Shown: positions 4,095-34,417 of the stretch, piece after piece
How the letters are laid out: each line of letters begins with the position of its first letter
How positions within the stretch are numbered: the stretch's first letter is position 1
Source of the DNA: Flavobacteriaceae bacterium
GTDB lineage: Bacteria; Bacteroidota; Bacteroidia; UKL13-3
Length of the DNA: 34,595 nucleotides
Direction: 5' to 3'
Assembly: GCA_025363675.1 (NCBI GenBank)
Contig: JANYDJ010000159.1
Location: 1 to 34,595 of the forward strand
The notes under the pieces: model-generated
Told to the model about the DNA's origin: nothing
Databases searched by the model: none
Seen by the model: the letters and a program-made list of their open reading frames with translations, nothing else
Position numbers and translations under genes: made by a program

Positions 4095-4565
4095 TTATAT
4101 ACTAATTTCTAGTACTTCCATTTTAATCACTCCGGCTGGTACTGTAATGTCTATAACATCGCCCACCTTTTTACCCATAAGCCCAGTTGCTATTGGAGAT
4201 TTAACAGAGATGCGGCCTGTGCTTATATCAGCTTCTTTTTCTGATACCAATTGGTATTGTACGGTATTACCTGTTTTGTGATTTTTAACTTTCACTTTGC
4301 ATAGTACCATTACTTTACTGGTATCCATTTTATCTTCATCTAGCAAACGAGCATTACCCAATAGTTTTTCCATTTGCGATATCTTAGCTTCCATTAGCCC
4401 CTGGGCTTCTTTGGCTGCATCGTATTCTGCATTTTCACTTAGGTCACCTTTATCTCTGGCTTCTGCAATCTGGGCCGATATTTTGGGTCTTTCTACAGTT
4501 TTTAGCTGTGTTAATTCCTTTTTCAAATTCTCTAATCCTTCTTTTGTAAAATATTGTACTTCCAT
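4095..4565 (-). CDS. greA: Transcription elongation factor GreA
   Basis: YFTKEGLENLKKELTQLKTVERPKISAQIAEARDKGDLSENAEYDAAKEAQG...GRISVKSPIATGLMGKKVGDVIDITVPAG. Confidence 0.97.
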   Translation of the reverse strand: MEVQYFTKEGLENLKKELTQLKTVERPKISAQIAEARDKGDLSENAEYDAAKEAQGLMEAKISQMEKLLGNARLLDEDKMDTSKVMVLCKVKVKNHKTGNTVQYQLVSEKEADISTGRISVKSPIATGLMGKKVGDVIDITVPAGVIKMEVLEISI

Positions 4566-4604
4566 AATATTTGGTATTTATTGTTGCTAGTGATATTTAA
4601 AAAC

Positions 4605-4638
4605 AAACGTCCCGACCCTAAAAAGAGTCGGAACGTTT
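4605..4638 (-). terminator. Terminator hairpin after the PorV-like gene
   Basis: AAACGTCCCGAC ... GTCGGAACGTTT stem on the 3' side of the 4679..5776 (-) CDS. Confidence 0.6.
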
Positions 4639-4678
4639 ATGATATATAATGATATTTTTTTGCTCTCTATTTTCCTAA

Positions 4679-5776
4679 TCAATCATTGTCTTTACCGCCC
4701 AAATCAATCCTTACGCCAAAGGTGTGCATATTGCCAAATGGCTTGGTTTGCTTAAACGAATAATCAAGTGCAAAGCTAGATTTATTTTTTCCAAAAGGCA
4801 ACTCTAAAGTGAAACCTGCATGAAAACCAGTGTATGCAGTATTACGTGCATCGCTACTAAAAATCCCTTGCTGATATAACATTCCTGTGCGAAGCATAAA
4901 GAAGGTTTTATATGCATATTCCAAACCCATAGCCCCCGTATTGTCTTGATAAGAATGCGAGGTGAAATTTCCTGCCAAAGTAAGTCTGTTAAAATATACT
5001 TCAGTTCCTTTATCTAATCGAAAATCGTAGCTCATGCCAAAATTTACTATGGAAGGCATACCATCCTTTGCTGAGCGTTGTTGCAATGTGGAACTATACG
5101 ATTTGGATGGGTCTTGTGCACGAATACTCATTCCATCGCCTGCGTATGAAATATCAGGACCAATATTCTTAACGGAGATACCGAGTTTAAAATCATTTCC
5201 TTTTAGTCTTCTAATTTCCTCATTGGTGTGGGTAGCTGTTCGATATTGAACACCTGCATCGAGTGTCATTGTAGATCCTGCAACTTCGGCAGTTCCTTCG
5301 CTTAAAAAACGTACCAACATGCCTCCATATATTTTCTCTGAGAATTTTTTTGCATACGACATTGCCAAATTAGTAAATTGCACGTTAAAGGTTCCCAAAC
5401 CTTCGGGCTGTTGCTCGGTAGTACGTTGTATATCGCCCGAATTAATGTTCATAAGCGAAAGTCCGATTACTCCACCGTTTTTACCTATAACCTGCGACAA
5501 TCCAAAGTTATTTATACTAATGCCTGCCAAATAGCGGGTATGAGAAAAAACAAGCTCGGTTTGCTTGGTTTGTGCAAGCCCGGCTACATTTATCCATGTA
5601 GCTTCTATGCCCTGCACATTGGCTGTATTTACGTTAGCCCAGCCATTACTTCTAGCCCAAGGATTAATAAGTAATTGCTCCCCTCCGTTGGTACCTCTTC
5701 GGTCAGGATTTCCTGCAAATACTTGACCCGATATCACTAGGGCCAAAATTGCTGTTATATATTTCATATAGTTCAT
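4679..5776 (-). CDS. PorV/PorQ family outer-membrane protein (T9SS-associated)
   Basis: Signal peptide; LLINPWARSNGWANVNTANVQGIEATWINVAGLAQTKQTELVFSHTRYLAGISINNFGLSQ; PorV/UPF0164-like beta-barrel pattern. Confidence 0.8.
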   Translation of the reverse strand: MNYMKYITAILALVISGQVFAGNPDRRGTNGGEQLLINPWARSNGWANVNTANVQGIEATWINVAGLAQTKQTELVFSHTRYLAGISINNFGLSQVIGKNGGVIGLSLMNINSGDIQRTTEQQPEGLGTFNVQFTNLAMSYAKKFSEKIYGGMLVRFLSEGTAEVAGSTMTLDAGVQYRTATHTNEEIRRLKGNDFKLGISVKNIGPDISYAGDGMSIRAQDPSKSYSSTLQQRSAKDGMPSIVNFGMSYDFRLDKGTEVYFNRLTLAGNFTSHSYQDNTGAMGLEYAYKTFFMLRTGMLYQQGIFSSDARNTAYTGFHAGFTLELPFGKNKSSFALDYSFKQTKPFGNMHTFGVRIDLGGKDND

Positions 5777-5799
5777 TTCTGTAATGTAGTTTTTATGTT

Positions 5800-8700
5800 T
5801 TAGAAAGTATCCAAATCAACAGGTCTCATAATACCATACCATTTAACAATTTTTTCTCCCAGTTCAAAAGCATTTACATGCACTATATATAATCCACTTG
5901 CTATTGGTACCTGTGCTTGGTTTTTCATATCCCAGTCTGCATAGGTTAGGTCATCATCTTTCTTTATTTGCCTTACCAAGGTTCCGCTCAATGAGTATAT
6001 ACTTATCACACATTTGGGTGGGAGATTAATAAACTTCACCCGCGTATCTAATTGCGAATTTTCATAATTAGATGCTCCGTAATAAGGATTGGGCACCACG
6101 TTTATTTTGTCCATGGCTGCTTTGCCAAGGTCGGTGGAATGATCGACCGCAATATCATTTGTATTAAATGTATAATAAGGATAGTCGTCTGGATTTACTT
6201 TTGAAGAGGTAACATATTTCGAATAAGGTTTTGAAACACGTACACGGTAACGCATTTCGCTGGGTATATTAAGTTTCCCCCCATCATAATTTATATTATA
6301 GCCACTAACCATGTATGGCATAGTAACCCATTGCACTTGCGATGCTACTTGACGCTTGGTGTTAGCATCATCAATTTTATTAGGTGTACTTAGTATTGCT
6401 TGATATGACAATCCCTCGTCGTAAATCGGTCCTGTATAAGAGCCATACTTTACAGGTGCACAAACATATACATGGTGCATGCCGCCCCATAGCGGACCAT
6501 TAAAATTCGCCACATCAGCTGTAGGATTCCACACCATATCAGCTCCATTGTATCCTTTAAGCCAAGAATTTTCACCCATAATAATATTTAACCTTTCGCC
6601 AGTTTCTATATTAATTGCGTATCCAGGGAACCACGAACGCCCTCTATCTGTTGGGTCATACTCGGGTATATAGTTACCCGTGCTGGGGTCTTTTATAATA
6701 TTCCCAGTCCACGAAGCATGGTCTCTTATGCTCCATTTTTTTCTGTTTCCCTCAGCCAATAAAGGGTCTTCGCTCATTTCTACCACCACACATTTAGTCC
6801 ATTTAGATTTGTCGGGCGTAAGTACCAAATCTATGCTTATTAAGTTTGCCATTGAGTTTTCGGTATTGCTTGATACGCTCGACCCCTCAAATGCAGGACC
6901 ATAGGTATCTTCTCCTGTGCTGGTACTCCTTGCGGCTCTTGAACATAACTTATAAGGGGCCATTCTACCGTCACATACTTTTTCATAATTTTCAAAAGGG
7001 TCTAGTCCTTCAAGAGGGCTTCCAAATCTCGCAAAATCATAGGTGTATTTCGATTTATCATTCAAACCTCCCTGAGCATCATATCCAAAGCTTTCAGCTT
7101 TGCCATTCACACCTGCACGTATCCAATTATAATAGCCTCCCCCGTCTTGGTCTTTTACACCGCTTAACCATTTGCGTGTAGGGTCGCTAAACTCAACTGA
7201 TGATTCTATAGAGCCATAATTTTTGTCTATGCTGTCAATACCTGGTTGGTTAGGCTGTTTCATAGCTATAGAGAAACCGTATTCTTTTATTATCTGCTCA
7301 TTGAATTTTTTTAAGGTGCTCAAGCAATTTGTAACTTTCCCTGTTGTCTTGTTGGTAAGCGTCCATATAGCACTATCACGCATTACATTGGGGCTTTTAG
7401 AATATTTTGAGGTATCCTTCATATTAAACTCGAATTCAGCTTTTGGCACTTTTAATGGGTCAATTACACTAACTCTAATTGGTCCGAAACCATTAGTATA
7501 TACTGGAAAATCCATTTTACCATCTCTCAATATTTGATCAATTGAAGCCTTGGTCAACTCAAGAGAGTTTCCTCCGTTTCCTTGTCCCTGCATTCGAGTT
7601 ATCATAGGTCCGCTACCATACAGTGCATTAATTTTGGAGCCGCTACTTGTTGGGTCTGGTTTATGCGGAATACCTGTATAACGTTTCACATTTAAACGAC
7701 CTGCAAGGTACTGCTCTGGGTTTTGATTCATAGGATCATTCGTTAAATTGGCATAGGCTATCACCATAAAATGATACTGTTTAAAATTAACCAAACGTTT
7801 ATCGCCTGTTGCAAATAAATCTTCTTTTACGCTAAATGAATGAACCACACCCGCATTATTTCCAATTACTTTCGATACAAGTAAGGGCGACCCAACCACA
7901 GGATCATATACCCTATTTATTAGTTGAGTAACATTATCATTGATATCCATTTGATTGATTATCCTTGCCTTTTCTGTATTGTCCAAATCACCTGTTGTTA
8001 CACTGGCATCTTTTAATTGATAAATTTGATACCCTTGATACTTATAAATAAAACTATCCAAAGGGTTTTTAGAAAAGGGGTTGCGAATCTTGCCCACATA
8101 ACTCTCTGTTTCAACAGTATTTGTATTTTCAAGTACTACAATCAGTTCGTTGTCATATTCTTTTATGCTCAAGTCTGGGGCTCTTGGGCCATCTATTAAT
8201 TTGAAATTATTATTGAAAAGTATCTGTGCTTTATCGTCGGCATTCTTAAGTTGGGTGAGTGAACCTGTTGCTCCCCCTATACTACTGCGAGCCCAAACTG
8301 CACCTACCGTCATCTCGTTGCGGGCACCTGTTTTTAAAGTTAAAGGCCCGACACTTTGCAAAAACCTACGATCACCAGGTTGATTGCCAGCTCCCTTTTC
8401 TGTCCATCCATTATTGGTTACTGGGTCGCCGTTAAACATAAAGTTATATGGGGTTGCACCTCCGCGACCGTTGCCACCATAGGTTACGTGCTGCCCATCT
8501 TGCCATAATGCTCGTAGGTAATTATAATAGTGTAAGGGTTTTGTAGGATTTCCTATCACACTAAAATCATTATTATAATACATAAACGCATATAAGGGCA
8601 ATTCGTCACCGTTTTCATTTTTTGGTCCTCTAAACAAGTCCAAACCAACTGTGGGAGGGTTTAAGCCATAACCTAAAATACCTTCGTCATTGTCGTCACC

Positions 8701-29860: not shown

Positions 29861-30012
29861 CTTATTTAGAATTATTCTACAAAATTACGAATGATATAAT
29901 GAGTAACCAAAGAAATGTGAAATTGTTTTTGAGCAGTGCTGAATTATGAATTATGAATTGGCTGACGCATGATTAGCCTATGCCAAGCTCCCCTTAAAGT
30001 GTAGCTTGATTG

Positions 30013-30249
30013 GTGGTAAATGAAAGTAGTGTAGCTAATGCTGATAGTAGTGTAGCTAGTAGTGAAAGTGGTGTAGCTAATGCTGATAGTAGTGTAGCTA
30101 GTAGTGAAAGTGGTGTAGCCAATGCTGATAGTAGTGTAGCTAAGTGTGAATGTGGTGTAGCTACTAGTGAAAGTAATGTAGCTAATGCTGATAGTAGTAT
30201 AGCCAATGGTGAAAGTGATGTAGCTAATAGTGAAAGTGATGTAGCTAAT
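30013..30249. repeat. 21-bp minisatellite, about 11 units (alternating types giving a 42-bp higher-order period)
   Basis: Units GTAGCTAATGCTGATAGTAGT / GTAGCTAGTAGTGAAAGTGGT; reads VANADSS/VASSESG on + and LATLLSA/LATPLSL on -. Confidence 0.95.
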
Positions 30250-30319
30250 CGCTACTTTTATTATTTTTTAGTTTATGGATTGAGGGTTAGGTTTGCGGGA
30301 TTGGAGAAACGGAAAACTG

Positions 30320-30351: not shown

Positions 30352-30419
30352 TGATAGAGTTGCTCCTATAACTAAGTTACCTGCAAGCGTAGCGGACGAC
30401 ACAGCAACGACCAACGACA

Positions 30420-31100
30420 ATGAAAAAAACAATATTCATACTTGGACTTTTAGGACTGACAATTTTTGGTGGACTTTACGCTAAACGAAAATTTTACGAC
30501 CCAAAACACCGACTTGACAACGCAAGAAATGAAGTAAAAAAACTTGCTGACCAAGACGAAATAAAAAATGGCGACCTAATATTTCAAACCTCACTTTCTG
30601 GACAAAGTAAAGCCATTCAACTTGCGACAAAATCAAAATATTCACACTGCGGACTTATCTACAAAGACGGCAATGACTTCTTTGTTTTTGAGGCGGTTCA
30701 ACCTGTTAAGCGGACACCACTTGACAAATGGATTGCCCGAGGAAAAGACGGTAAGTATGTAATCAAACGACTTAAAAACGCTGACCAAGTTTTAACTTCT
30801 GCGACACTTCAGAAAATGAAGCAAGTTGGCGACAACTTTAACGGCAAAGACTACGACCTAACTTTTGAGTGGTCGGACGACAAAATTTATTGCTCAGAAC
30901 TAATTTGGAAAATCTACCAACGGGCGACAGGAATTGAAATTGGTAAACTTGAAAAACTTAGCGACTTTGACTTGACAAACGAAGCTGTTAAACAAAAAAT
31001 GAAGGAACGTTACGGGGACAAAATCCCAACAGAAGAAATTGTAATTTCACCGGCAGCAATTTTTGACAGCGAACTTTTGACAACAATAAAATCAAACTAA
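30420..31100 (+). CDS. YiiX/YebB-like permuted papain-fold (NlpC/P60-like) cysteine hydrolase
   Basis: IKNGDLIFQTSLSGQSKAIQLATKSKYSHCGLIYKDGNDFFVFEAVQPVKRTPLDKW...DDKIYCSELIWKIYQRATG; His/Glu/Cys motif order of the permuted fold; N-terminal TM. Confidence 0.85.
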   Translation: MKKTIFILGLLGLTIFGGLYAKRKFYDPKHRLDNARNEVKKLADQDEIKNGDLIFQTSLSGQSKAIQLATKSKYSHCGLIYKDGNDFFVFEAVQPVKRTPLDKWIARGKDGKYVIKRLKNADQVLTSATLQKMKQVGDNFNGKDYDLTFEWSDDKIYCSELIWKIYQRATGIEIGKLEKLSDFDLTNEAVKQKMKERYGDKIPTEEIVISPAAIFDSELLTTIKSN

Positions 31101-31474
31101 TGACAGAAGTAAAATCTAATAAATGGAGGAAATGGATTTTTCGTTTATCCATTACTTTCAATATAATTTTCGGTTTCGGTTTGTTTTTAAATTACATAAA
31201 CTCACCGACCTATAAACTTGGAGTTTTGACACAAGACGTAAATGCAGGGTTTCTCGCAGGTGACAGCACAATTTATAAAATCCCAAAAGGTATTACTGTT
31301 CGTGACGTTTCACCTCGTGGCATTGAAGCAATTGGACAATTTGAAAATAATCGCTTTGAATTAGTTTTCACAACCGACCGAGACGATTTAGTTAATTACA
31401 ATATTTCAAAGGACAATTTATTTCAGTTTGGTAATTATTATTCAGCAGACAAATCACCAGGGACAGCAAGATGA
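31100..31474 (+). CDS. Hypothetical small membrane-anchored protein
   Basis: TAATGA coupling with the upstream gene (1-nt overlap); N-terminal TM WIFRLSITFNIIFGFGLFLNYI. Confidence 0.6.
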   Translation: MTEVKSNKWRKWIFRLSITFNIIFGFGLFLNYINSPTYKLGVLTQDVNAGFLAGDSTIYKIPKGITVRDVSPRGIEAIGQFENNRFELVFTTDRDDLVNYNISKDNLFQFGNYYSADKSPGTAR

Positions 31475-31500
31475 AAACAGCAACGACAGAGAGAACGCCA

Positions 31501-31635
31501 GCAGGTAACAGCACCTACCCAAAAGGCGGGGTTTCGTGTTCCAAAGACAGCTTTGTGGTTAATCAAACATTAGTTTTTCAAATCAAGTTTTGTGGTAAAA
31601 GTCCCGCCCTTCGGGTAGCTGCAAAACGTTATGCG
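31501..31635 (+). other. attC site 1
   Basis: R'' GCAGGTAAC; stem CTACCC..GGCGGG / CCCGCCC..GGGTAG; R' GTTATGCG. Confidence 0.85.
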
Positions 31636-31709
31636 TCATTGGAGAACGCGTGTAACGAACTTTATCGCAACGAACAGAGCTAAATAAAACAATTAAAAAA
31701 TAGAACATA

Positions 31710-32147
31710 ATGAGAACCTACGGAGCATCACAAAAACTTGTTGACATACTTTTGAAAAATGGTTTTGCCGACAACACAGAAAAAGACTATCCTCAACATT
31801 TTAAAAAAATGAATGAGAAAGGTTACGACCCTGATAAAATTAAAAGACAATTTGCAAGAAATTCGCATAAGGACTACATTATATTTGATTACATAAATAT
31901 TCATCCTATGTATAATGGTAGTTGCCACGGCAATGAGAGCAGAATAACTCTTACAGAACCTGAATTAAAATCAATGATTACGTTTTATAAATTAACCCCA
32001 CAAGATAGAAATGCTTGGAGAAAGTTGTATGATTGTATTCCAGAACTTCATTTGCATTACGAAAAAGTTTGTGAACAACCAAGAATATATAAAACTCCAC
32101 TTGACAAGAGGGTAAAAGAGATATTTGAAAACATAGTTCTTGATTAA
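31710..32147 (+). CDS. Hypothetical cassette protein (145 aa)
   Basis: ORF fills cassette 2; MRTYGASQKLVDILLKNGFADNTEKDYPQHF...; no family recognised. Confidence 0.65.
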   Translation: MRTYGASQKLVDILLKNGFADNTEKDYPQHFKKMNEKGYDPDKIKRQFARNSHKDYIIFDYINIHPMYNGSCHGNESRITLTEPELKSMITFYKLTPQDRNAWRKLYDCIPELHLHYEKVCEQPRIYKTPLDKRVKEIFENIVLD

Positions 32148-32213
32148 GAATATCTAAACAAGTAAGTATAAAAAAGTAAATAAATAATTAATTAATCTTT
32201 AAAAATTAAAACA

Positions 32214-32399
32214 ATGAAAGAGCAAGAATTAGACCCAAGAGACAAAGCGGATTTAGATAATCACGCAAATCAATTAAATCCTAACAACGATGAGTATGAT
32301 GGGGACGATGATGATGACCAAGACGATGACCACGACTATGACAATGATAATCATAGTAACCAGTTAAACCCTAACAATGACGAATATCGTGGTGGTTAA
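32214..32399 (+). CDS. Small acidic protein with duplicated NHxNQLNPNNDEY motif
   Basis: DNHANQLNPNNDEYDGDDDDDQDDDHDYDNDNHSNQLNPNNDEYRGG; purine-rich upstream region. Confidence 0.6.
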   Translation: MKEQELDPRDKADLDNHANQLNPNNDEYDGDDDDDQDDDHDYDNDNHSNQLNPNNDEYRGG

Positions 32400-32458
32400 A
32401 AAAATACCTGTAAACATACCTGAAACACTTGAAAACATTGACACGAAAGAACAACGAA

Positions 32459-32556
32459 CGCATAACATTAGCTTGCCGAAAATGCCGCCAGACAGCTCTC
32501 TGCTAATTTTAAAGTGTCTGCAAGGCGGCACTTCGGCAAGCCCTGACCGTTAGCGG
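32459..32556 (+). other. attC site 2
   Basis: R'' CGCATAAC; GCTTGCCGAAAATGCCGCC / GGCGGCACTTCGGCAAGC stem; R' GTTAGCGG. Confidence 0.88.
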
Positions 32557-32630
32557 TAATTGTAACGACCGACAGTGCAAACATTAAACGAAAGAGAAAA
32601 ACAAAATAGTAATCAATAAAAAACAACATT

Positions 32631-33032
32631 ATGGCATACAAGAAAAAAGTTTTCGTTAGCTATGACTACGACAATGACAAACATTACAAGAATTTGCTTT
32701 TGGCTTGGGACTCAAACAAACTGTTTGACTTCTCTATTCACGACCATTCAGCAGACGTTTCTATTAACAGCACAAACGCAACAGCGATTAAATCTGTTCT
32801 TTCACGTTACATAAATGAAGCGACCTATTTTTTAGTTATTGTTGGTGCAAAGACACACAAAAGTGCTTGGGTAAAATGGGAAATTGAAAAAGCAGTTGAA
32901 TTGAGAAAAAGAATAATTGCAGTAAAAACAGACAGAGAAAACACTTCTCCAGACGCACTAATGGGAATTGGAGCAAGTTGGGCAATGTCTTTCACTTATG
33001 ACGCAATTACAAAAGCAATCGACAACGCATAA
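32631..33032 (+). CDS. TIR-like (MTH538/DUF1863-type; Thoeris ThsB-like) protein
   Basis: KKKVFVSYDYDNDKHYKNLLLAWDSNKLFDFSIHDHSADVSINSTNATAIKSVLSRYINEATYFLVIVGAKTHKSAWVKWEIEKAVELRKRIIAVKTDR...GIGASWAMSFTYDAITKAI. Confidence 0.88.
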   Translation: MAYKKKVFVSYDYDNDKHYKNLLLAWDSNKLFDFSIHDHSADVSINSTNATAIKSVLSRYINEATYFLVIVGAKTHKSAWVKWEIEKAVELRKRIIAVKTDRENTSPDALMGIGASWAMSFTYDAITKAIDNA

Positions 33033-33035
33033 ATT

Positions 33036-34289
33036 ATGGCGACAACAAAAACTTGCTTTGTAATTATTGGTTTTGGACCAAAACCCGACCCCGAAACGGG
33101 ACGAATTGTTGATTTGGACAAAACTTTTGAAAATTTAATTAAGCCAGTTTTTGACGACCTTAAAATAGAGTGTTTTAGAGCAAAAGAAATTCGACATTCG
33201 GGCAATATTGACGAACAAATGTATGATTGGATTTATAAAGCCGATATTGTGGTAGCAGACATTTCAACCCACAATGCAAACGCTTTATATGAACTTGGAG
33301 TTAGACATGCTCTAAGACCAAACACAACTATTGTAATTTCGGAAGACCAAACAAAATATCCTTTTGATTTAGCACATACAGTAATTTCAACCTACGAACA
33401 TTTAGGAAAAGACATTGGTGTTAGTGAAGCAAATCGCTTTAAAAAGCAACTTAAAGAAACTGTTTTAGCCGTGTTAAAAAGTAAAGCGAAAGACAGTCCT
33501 GTTTATACTTATTTGCCGAAACTTCAACCACCAAAATTTAATGATGAAGACCTAAGAGAAATTATTGTAAAAGATAGTATTCAGCCTTCGTTTTCAGAAC
33601 TAATAAACGATGCTGAAAAGGCAAAAAGCAATAATGAATTTAAGGTTGCTGGTTTATTATATGAGGTATGTTTAAAGTTCGAGCCTAATAATGTTTTCCT
33701 ACGACAACGATTAGCACTTGTAACATATAAAGGATGTAAGCCGACAATTAAAAAGGCACTTTTTGAAGCAGAAAATATTTTAAAGGAATTAAAGCCAGAA
33801 GAAACAACGGACACAGAAACACTTGGACTATCAGGAGCAATAAACAAAAGACTTTTTGAAGAAACAAAAGACGAAAAGTATCTTGATAAAGCCATTTGGT
33901 TTTATTCAAAAGGTTATCACATTGCACAAGACTATTACAACGGAATTAACTATGCTTTTTTGCTTACAACAAAAGCAACACTTCAGACAGACAAGCTTGA
34001 GGCAATTTCATATTTCAAGCAAAGTCAAAGGACACGAGAAGAAATTGTAAAATTATGTAACGATTTAATCAAACAGAAAACATTCAAAGACCGTGGCGAC
34101 CAAGAATGGATTTATCAGTCTTTAGCACAAGCATATTTGGGGCTTGACAAACAAACCGAACTGAAAACAATAATCGGTAAAATCAATAAATTATCTAAAG
34201 GACAGTTTGACCTTGACACATTTTTAGAACACAACAAAAAACTTATTGACAACATTGAACTCATACGAAAGAAGAACAACTACCGCTAA
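33036..34289 (+). CDS. TIR/nucleoside-deoxyribosyltransferase-like N-terminus plus TPR-like 'TRAFs-binding'-type C-terminus
   Basis: CFVIIGFGPKPDPETGRIVDLDKTFENLIKPVFDDLKIECFRAKEIRHSGNIDEQMYDWIYKADIVVADISTHNANALYELGVRHALRP; C-terminal ETLGLSGAINKRLFEETKDEKYLDKAIWFYSKGYHIAQDYYNGINYAFLL. Start is 3 nt after the TIR stop. Confidence 0.82.
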   Translation: MATTKTCFVIIGFGPKPDPETGRIVDLDKTFENLIKPVFDDLKIECFRAKEIRHSGNIDEQMYDWIYKADIVVADISTHNANALYELGVRHALRPNTTIVISEDQTKYPFDLAHTVISTYEHLGKDIGVSEANRFKKQLKETVLAVLKSKAKDSPVYTYLPKLQPPKFNDEDLREIIVKDSIQPSFSELINDAEKAKSNNEFKVAGLLYEVCLKFEPNNVFLRQRLALVTYKGCKPTIKKALFEAENILKELKPEETTDTETLGLSGAINKRLFEETKDEKYLDKAIWFYSKGYHIAQDYYNGINYAFLLTTKATLQTDKLEAISYFKQSQRTREEIVKLCNDLIKQKTFKDRGDQEWIYQSLAQAYLGLDKQTELKTIIGKINKLSKGQFDLDTFLEHNKKLIDNIELIRKKNNYR

Positions 34290-34417
34290 CAGCACATTTG
34301 CAATAGGCGGGGTTTCGTGCTCCGCAGACACATTTGTGGTAGCCGAAAGTTTTGTGCTCCGCATCAAGTTCAGTGGTAAAAATCCCGCCCATCGCAAATC
34401 TGCAAACCGTTAGGTGC
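34281..34417 (+). other. attC site 3
   Basis: R'' TACCGCTAAC; stem ATTTGC..GGCGGG / CCCGCCC..GCAAAT; R' GTTAGGTGC. Confidence 0.88.

Follow-up and report, generated by a model that had tools for sequence, protein, structure and literature searches.

A recurrent pair of ThsB-type TIR and DrHyd-TPR-S genes on an integron-type cassette, a candidate Thoeris-like immune module

The window analysed here, positions 1 to 34,595 of contig JANYDJ010000159.1 of a Flavobacteriaceae bacterium, contains a cassette with two genes on the same strand, one for a small ThsB-type TIR protein and one for a larger protein designated DrHyd-TPR-S (Table 1). Inspection of the open reading frames confirmed the two genes and the 3-nt gap between 33032 and 33036 that a first-pass annotation, made from the sequence, had given. 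We lean towards reading the pair as a two-gene, cassette-borne immune module that signals through NAD in the manner of Thoeris, with DrHyd-TPR-S substituting for SIR2-SLOG. This reading is favoured by the wide spread of the pair, its defence-type neighbours, the invariant Glu in both proteins, purifying selection, correlated divergence and the mobility of the cassette. The points counted against it are the weak NDT/DNPH1 sequence link, the low-confidence N-terminal model, the loci with a patatin or with no TIR, the SLATT loci and the conservation of the TIR.

Table 1. Features of the two-gene cassette and its ends, with positions in the window
Feature	Position	Strand	Basis
ThsB-type TIR protein, 133 aa	32631..33032	+	Pfam, PADLOC, PDB profile, ORF list
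Glu84 codon, presumed catalytic Glu of TIR, motif WVKWEIEKA	32880..32882	+	Invariance among partner TIRs
DrHyd-TPR-S protein, 417 aa	33036..34289	+	PF20308 TPR-S, PF13281
N-terminal NDT/DNPH1-like (DrHyd) domain, aa 1-150	33036..33485	+	Weak profile match, Nuc_deoxyrib_tr 0.033, model
Glu86 codon (YELG), presumed catalytic Glu of DrHyd domain	33291..33293	+	Invariant in 28 homologues
TPR-S / ASK1-type TPR region, aa 186-414	33591..34277	+	Model, ASK1 profile match, invariant residues
Mobile integron-type cassette with two genes, 1864 bp, GTTAGCGG at its 5' end, closing at the downstream attC-like crossover	32549..34412	+	blastn to L036
Upstream attC-like site, closing the preceding cassette, R' GTTAGCGG at 32549	32452..32562		Hairpin, end pairing
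Downstream attC-like site, R'' CCGCTAAC to 34290, GTTAGG at 34409	34276..34416		Complementary arms, hairpin z -2.9

The product of ORF 1 was matched by ThsB_TIR in Pfam (PF08937, 5.5e-20) and by ThsB in PADLOC (6.7e-21, with 15 ThsB models matching), which makes it a ThsB-family TIR protein, one of the two components by which Thoeris is recognised, and bears out its initial description as ThsB-like. Profile comparison with the PDB gave the ThsB chains 9b7d/6lhy at about 1.5e-10. The presumed catalytic Glu, which the first-pass annotation had proposed to look for, corresponds to Glu84, and alignment showed that this residue is unchanged across 15 diverse partner TIRs. The same approach placed Phe8 at the active-site aromatic position. 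According to a published Phe/Ala versus Tyr rule, Tyr at this position is tied to deoxy-type ThsB active sites (PMC11204291); judged by the alignment, Phe8 represents the aromatic state of NADase-type TIRs and not the Tyr of deoxy-type ThsB.

ORF 2 was matched in Pfam by TPR-S (PF20308, 1.1e-21) and, overlapping it, by MAP3K_TRAF_bd (PF13281, 1.1e-9), in agreement with the early view of its C-terminus as TPR-like. Among 28 aligned homologues, TPR-S was matched in all and MAP3K_TRAF_bd in 27, and the TPR-region residues E261, K271, Y301, G303, N305 and W358 are invariant. The N-terminus had been likened to deoxyribosyltransferases, and an NDT/DNPH1-like motif (ADIVVADISTHNANALYELG) with its own Glu86 was indeed found there, although the sequence link is weak: Nuc_deoxyrib_tr was matched in Pfam at 0.033, below threshold, and a profile of the domain gave a weak match (1.5e-3) to DNPH1/Rcl structures at the ADxVVAD...YELG motif. 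The residues K16, R48, D75, N80, N82, E86 and R90 of this domain are invariant in the 28 homologues, which come from several phyla. At the position where DNPH1/NDT enzymes have Tyr, the motif alignment placed a Phe in the DrHyd domain, and this exchange would fit a ribose substrate, for example NAD+. AlphaFold modelling of the two proteins, another suggestion of the first-pass annotation, succeeded in part. The TPR region was modelled as all-helical with pLDDT mostly 80-98, and the N-terminal domain as an alternating alpha/beta fold at low confidence, so that of the marks of a DrHyd domain the YELG-type motif and the invariant E86 are present and the Rossmannoid fold is modelled at low confidence. 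The TIR model is also of low confidence (pLDDT 65), and its fold match is supporting only.

When the whole predicted 417-aa protein was compared with the PDB, the best match was the cryo-EM structure of human ASK1 (8qgy). By sequence profile, the TPR region matched ASK1 5ulm over 199-404 (2.2e-6), the N-terminal profile touched 8qgy weakly (0.49), and a profile search of the PDB returned no solved close relative of TPR-S beyond ASK1. Parts of the ASK signalosome have been traced to bacterial conflict systems by the Burroughs/Aravind group (PMC8195603).

A scan of one genome per species yielded four close relatives of the 417-aa protein (73-96% identity), each with a 133-aa TIR immediately 5', and plasmid records contained 66 relatives. 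Reading of the plasmid surroundings showed a TIR gene 3' of DrHyd-TPR-S in Escherichia, Aeromonas, Klebsiella and Pseudomonas, 5' of it in Acinetobacter, Lactiplantibacillus and one Vibrio, and divergent from it in another Vibrio; on viral contigs, all three full-length relatives adjoin a TIR. In a non-redundant set of 24 loci (less than 90% identical, at least 180 bits), a TIR gene was found no more than 400 nt from DrHyd-TPR-S in 18, in 17 of them on the same strand, and the gene orders were TIR-first, TIR-second or divergent, with some gaps above 100 nt. The pair occurs in Bacteroidota, Gamma- and Alphaproteobacteria and lactobacilli, often on plasmids and also on viral or prophage contigs. 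E. coli plasmids provide two full copies, and one DrHyd-TPR-S gene is accompanied by several TIR genes in each of L039, L048 and L060. Across 395 genomes of the class, ThsB_TIR was located within 7 kb of 7 of the 16 strong TPR-S places with the window included and of 6 of the 15 without it, compared to a chance expectation of ~6e-4 per TPR-S place (62 ThsB matches in roughly 1.5 Gb). Chance pairing is ruled out by this co-location count together with the 18 of 24 loci, and a pair restricted to this locus by the relatives in genomes, plasmids and viral contigs. The first-pass annotation had made its proposal depend on the two genes staying neighbours elsewhere, and they do.

The evolutionary distances of the two partners are correlated (Mantel r 0.83, and 0.62 once close relatives are removed; reached by 0 and 2 of 5000 permutations, respectively). 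Host relatedness contributes to this value, and the correlation thus supports co-evolution and does not prove it. Comparison of the window with L036 gave dN/dS values of 0.075 for the TIR gene and 0.058 for the second gene, which points to strong purifying selection on both.

To judge from its ends, the pair moves as one integron-type cassette. The blastn comparison with L036, a Cytophagaceae MAG, showed that positions 4517-6377 of the latter are 90.6% identical to 32549-34412 of the window, that homology is limited to that span, and that the cassettes flanking the pair are unrelated between the two. The 15-nt arms 32549-32563 and 34276-34290 are 93% complementary. The stretch 30376-34412 consists of three successive units, each starting with GTTA and each with its own end complementary to its own start (13, 11 and 14 of 15 positions for the three cassettes, compared to 6-9 when starts and ends of different window cassettes are paired); at the upstream site, CGCATAAC at 32459-32466 pairs with the start of the preceding cassette at 31628. 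The attC-like hairpins, evaluated on four best-fitting strands, have z values of -2.9 to -5.1 against shuffles, the upstream one as DNA -4.5/-5.1. In Amniculibacterium (L038) the ends have changed jointly, with GTTACCGG/CCGGTAAC in place of GTTAGCGG/CCGCTAAC. Since the homology edges 32549 and 34412 are crossover points and the ends covary in L038, the cassette delivery assumed in the first-pass annotation holds: complementary ends with the core GTT/AAC and an exact-ended copy in a second array are what is expected of integron cassettes. L037 and L039 also carry the pair, and such ends were not found there in the sequence read or by homology. Searches of the region gave no annotated Rfam family matching the hairpins and, with ARAGORN, no tRNA.

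Copies related to the downstream attC-like site were found at 31506-31631 and on contig C215. The window contig terminates inside the array and C215 opens with another attC-like site, and C184 and C215 may be pieces of one array split in assembly; in G000, C215:1-2200 (L109) carries this second attC-like site and cassettes at the contig start. Two upstream cassettes lie within 30376-32466. One has genes at 30420-31474 for a YiiX-type permuted papain-like amidase and a small membrane protein, and the next has genes at 31710-32399 for a 145-aa unknown protein and a 61-aa repeat protein of strongly acidic composition. A 21-nt unit (TAGCTAGTAGTGAAAGTGGTG-like) is repeated some 13 times at 29979-30272, in the interval that separates the Nfu gene from the cassette array.

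In the mechanism that we propose, the ThsB-type TIR would sense infection through a presumed trigger and would make a small nucleotide signal from NAD+. This TIR-made signal would be bound by TPR-S in the second protein, and binding would switch on the DrHyd domain of the same protein, as SLOG sensing does SIR2 in ThsA. The activated domain would then cleave N-glycosidic bonds, in NAD+ or in a different nucleotide, and stop the infected cell, with NAD+ cleavage and phage protection as the predicted outcome.

The main rival, which we consider unlikely, reverses these roles: DrHyd-TPR-S would sense or scaffold, binding or making a nucleotide signal, and the small TIR, assembled and activated by it, would be the NADase that executes. 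TIR domains can be NADase effectors (PMC9503650; SpbK, PMC12847820), and the whole-protein ASK1 similarity points to scaffolding. Moreover, close relatives differ far less in the TIR than in its partner (96% compared to 78% identity to L037), which is unlike the usual phage-sensing subunit. However, Glu86 and its neighbours in the DrHyd domain are invariant in the 28 homologues, more than a pure binding fold needs, and the TIR matches ThsB, a family of signal producers, and not the families of effector TIRs.

A TIR does not accompany every DrHyd-TPR-S gene: L049, L058, L059 and L068 have no TIR neighbour, and a patatin-like lipase gene adjoins DrHyd-TPR-S instead of a TIR in L051 (3602-4831) and L090 (7072-8202), where patatin is a possible alternative executor. 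DrHyd-TPR-S is thus a hub that works mostly, not always, with a TIR. SLATT genes were seen in 9 of 32 loci, suggesting another executor in many hosts; as the stretch read has none in the other 23, SLATT is ruled out as an obligatory third component. On enterobacterial plasmids SLATT_3 and SLATT_1 form a tandem in the SLATT protein, which is encoded beside a second ThsB-type TIR; because this TIR-SLATT unit also occurs without the pair on E. coli plasmids, it is read as an independent module that frequently accompanies the pair. A SIR2-like protein is encoded in the cassette adjoining the pair in L036 (6374-7720), and a SIR2-HerA couple lies beside the pair in L038 (164-2928). Defence-type neighbours in other loci, the unannotated ones named by sequence reading, include SIR2 with HerA, SLATT, Schlafen/DUF2075-like proteins and DarT.

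The Rhizobiaceae plasmids L044, L046, L054 and L056 share a conserved block adjoining DrHyd-TPR-S, often with SLATT, that comprises genes for a TIR, a 7-cyano-7-deazaguanine synthase, an HhH DNA lyase, a TIR-TGT-like protein and a PfkB-type kinase. The C-terminal part of the L044 TIR protein matches a TGT model (PADLOC, 1.6e-20), and the viral contig L098 has parts of the same block, which looks like a distinct deazaguanine-linked TIR system.

It was also considered that the pair is a signalling core whose executor is a third protein, namely a SLATT pore, a patatin lipase, a SIR2 protein or one encoded elsewhere in this genome. The SLATT, patatin and SIR2-like neighbours just described speak for this arrangement, but we regard it as doubtful at best: the window cassette, G450 (L089), the 9.8-kb Pseudomonas plasmid pA7J1, the viral contig L096 and, within a short contig, L037 all have the pair by itself, and the TIR-SLATT unit behaves as if separate. 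An addiction cassette, in which one protein is toxic and its partner restrains it so that the array or plasmid is stabilised, is highly improbable. The tight operon on plasmids and cassettes and the toxin-antitoxin genes adjoining it on several plasmids would fit, whereas the flips in gene order, the divergent or widely spaced (>100 nt) genes, the occurrence of DrHyd-TPR-S without a TIR and the enzyme-type active sites kept in both proteins would not. A role in routine nucleotide salvage or in stress signalling without relation to phage is barely credible, for although DNPH1/NDT relatives are salvage or sanitation enzymes and L058 and L068 have a fixed chromosomal context without a TIR, the spread of the pair is patchy, borne by plasmids, cassettes and prophages, with defence-type neighbours.

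Within the favoured reading of the pair as a Thoeris-like immune module, we tentatively advance a narrower one, that DrHyd-TPR-S and ThsB make up a Thoeris type of their own, with an ASK1-type TPR receptor that detects an NAD-derived messenger from the TIR and triggers the N-glycosidase fused to it. If so, a bacterial nucleotide receptor would be the ancestor of the regulatory half of animal ASK1, and a ligand pocket may survive in the human protein. Should the ASK1-like TPR bind a TIR-made NAD derivative, the origin of the ASK1 stress kinase would be connected with NAD signalling in bacteria, and an immune pathway of two genes would be seen to travel in one cassette. The minimal 1.86-kb cassette and the two full copies on E. 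coli plasmids make a direct test easy.

Several known systems can be compared with the pair. The likeness to Thoeris lies in a small separate ThsB-family TIR protein, in a larger partner with two predicted domains, one for nucleotide cleavage and one for signal binding, and in several TIR genes per effector at some loci, as one ThsA may go with several ThsB in Thoeris. The difference is the partner, which is DrHyd-TPR-S and not a SIR2-SLOG or TM-macro ThsA. In line with the first-pass annotation, Pfam and PADLOC scans of the pair and of further proteins found neither form of ThsA, and the cassette has no ThsA gene and no SLATT gene; genome-wide STALD and SLATT_1 family searches gave no match, their controls being without signal too. 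The neighbour of the TIR gene is thus not the adjacent ThsA effector by which Thoeris is defined, and canonical Thoeris was rejected as a label, but the pair probably works like Thoeris.

With integron gene cassettes and CALIN arrays the cassette shares cassette-specific complementary ends, hairpin sites and the presence of the same cassette in two arrays. It differs in that no integrase scored above the cut-off in the draft genome (87% complete), the best tyrosine recombinase stretch reaching 119 bits compared to an IntI cut-off of 265; integrons have rarely been reported in Bacteroidetes (PMC9024848). DNPH1/Rcl and nucleoside 2-deoxyribosyltransferases share with the DrHyd domain the AD-x-VVAD ... 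YELG motif with an aligned catalytic Glu, although the similarity is weak. The regulatory half of animal ASK1 (MAP3K5) is alike in the TPR region and the whole-protein fold; the bacterial protein differs in having no kinase and no PH domain and in retaining a putative catalytic Glu.

The closest relatives are the TPR-S conflict systems. In a 2020 J Bacteriol article, Burroughs and Aravind reportedly predicted such systems, in which TPR-S ("TPR-Sensor", PF20308) with TIR, DrHyd or SLATT is said to be a sensor of an NAD signal. The pair has their features in common: the TPR-S domain, the DrHyd/TIR context with an adjacent TIR and a fused DrHyd domain that is weak by sequence, SLATT neighbours and a predicted NAD-derived signal. 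The specific pairing put forward in the first-pass annotation therefore stands as a recurrent one but is neither unique to this locus nor without precedent, the TPR-S family having already been named and predicted. The PADLOC 2023 models do not include the pair as a system of its own, and a literature search found no paper testing a TPR-S/TIR system. Compared to those systems, the form described here is a minimal two-gene one carried as an integron-type cassette in Bacteroidota, and what is new is the exact cassette mobility, the pairing counts and the whole-protein match to ASK1.
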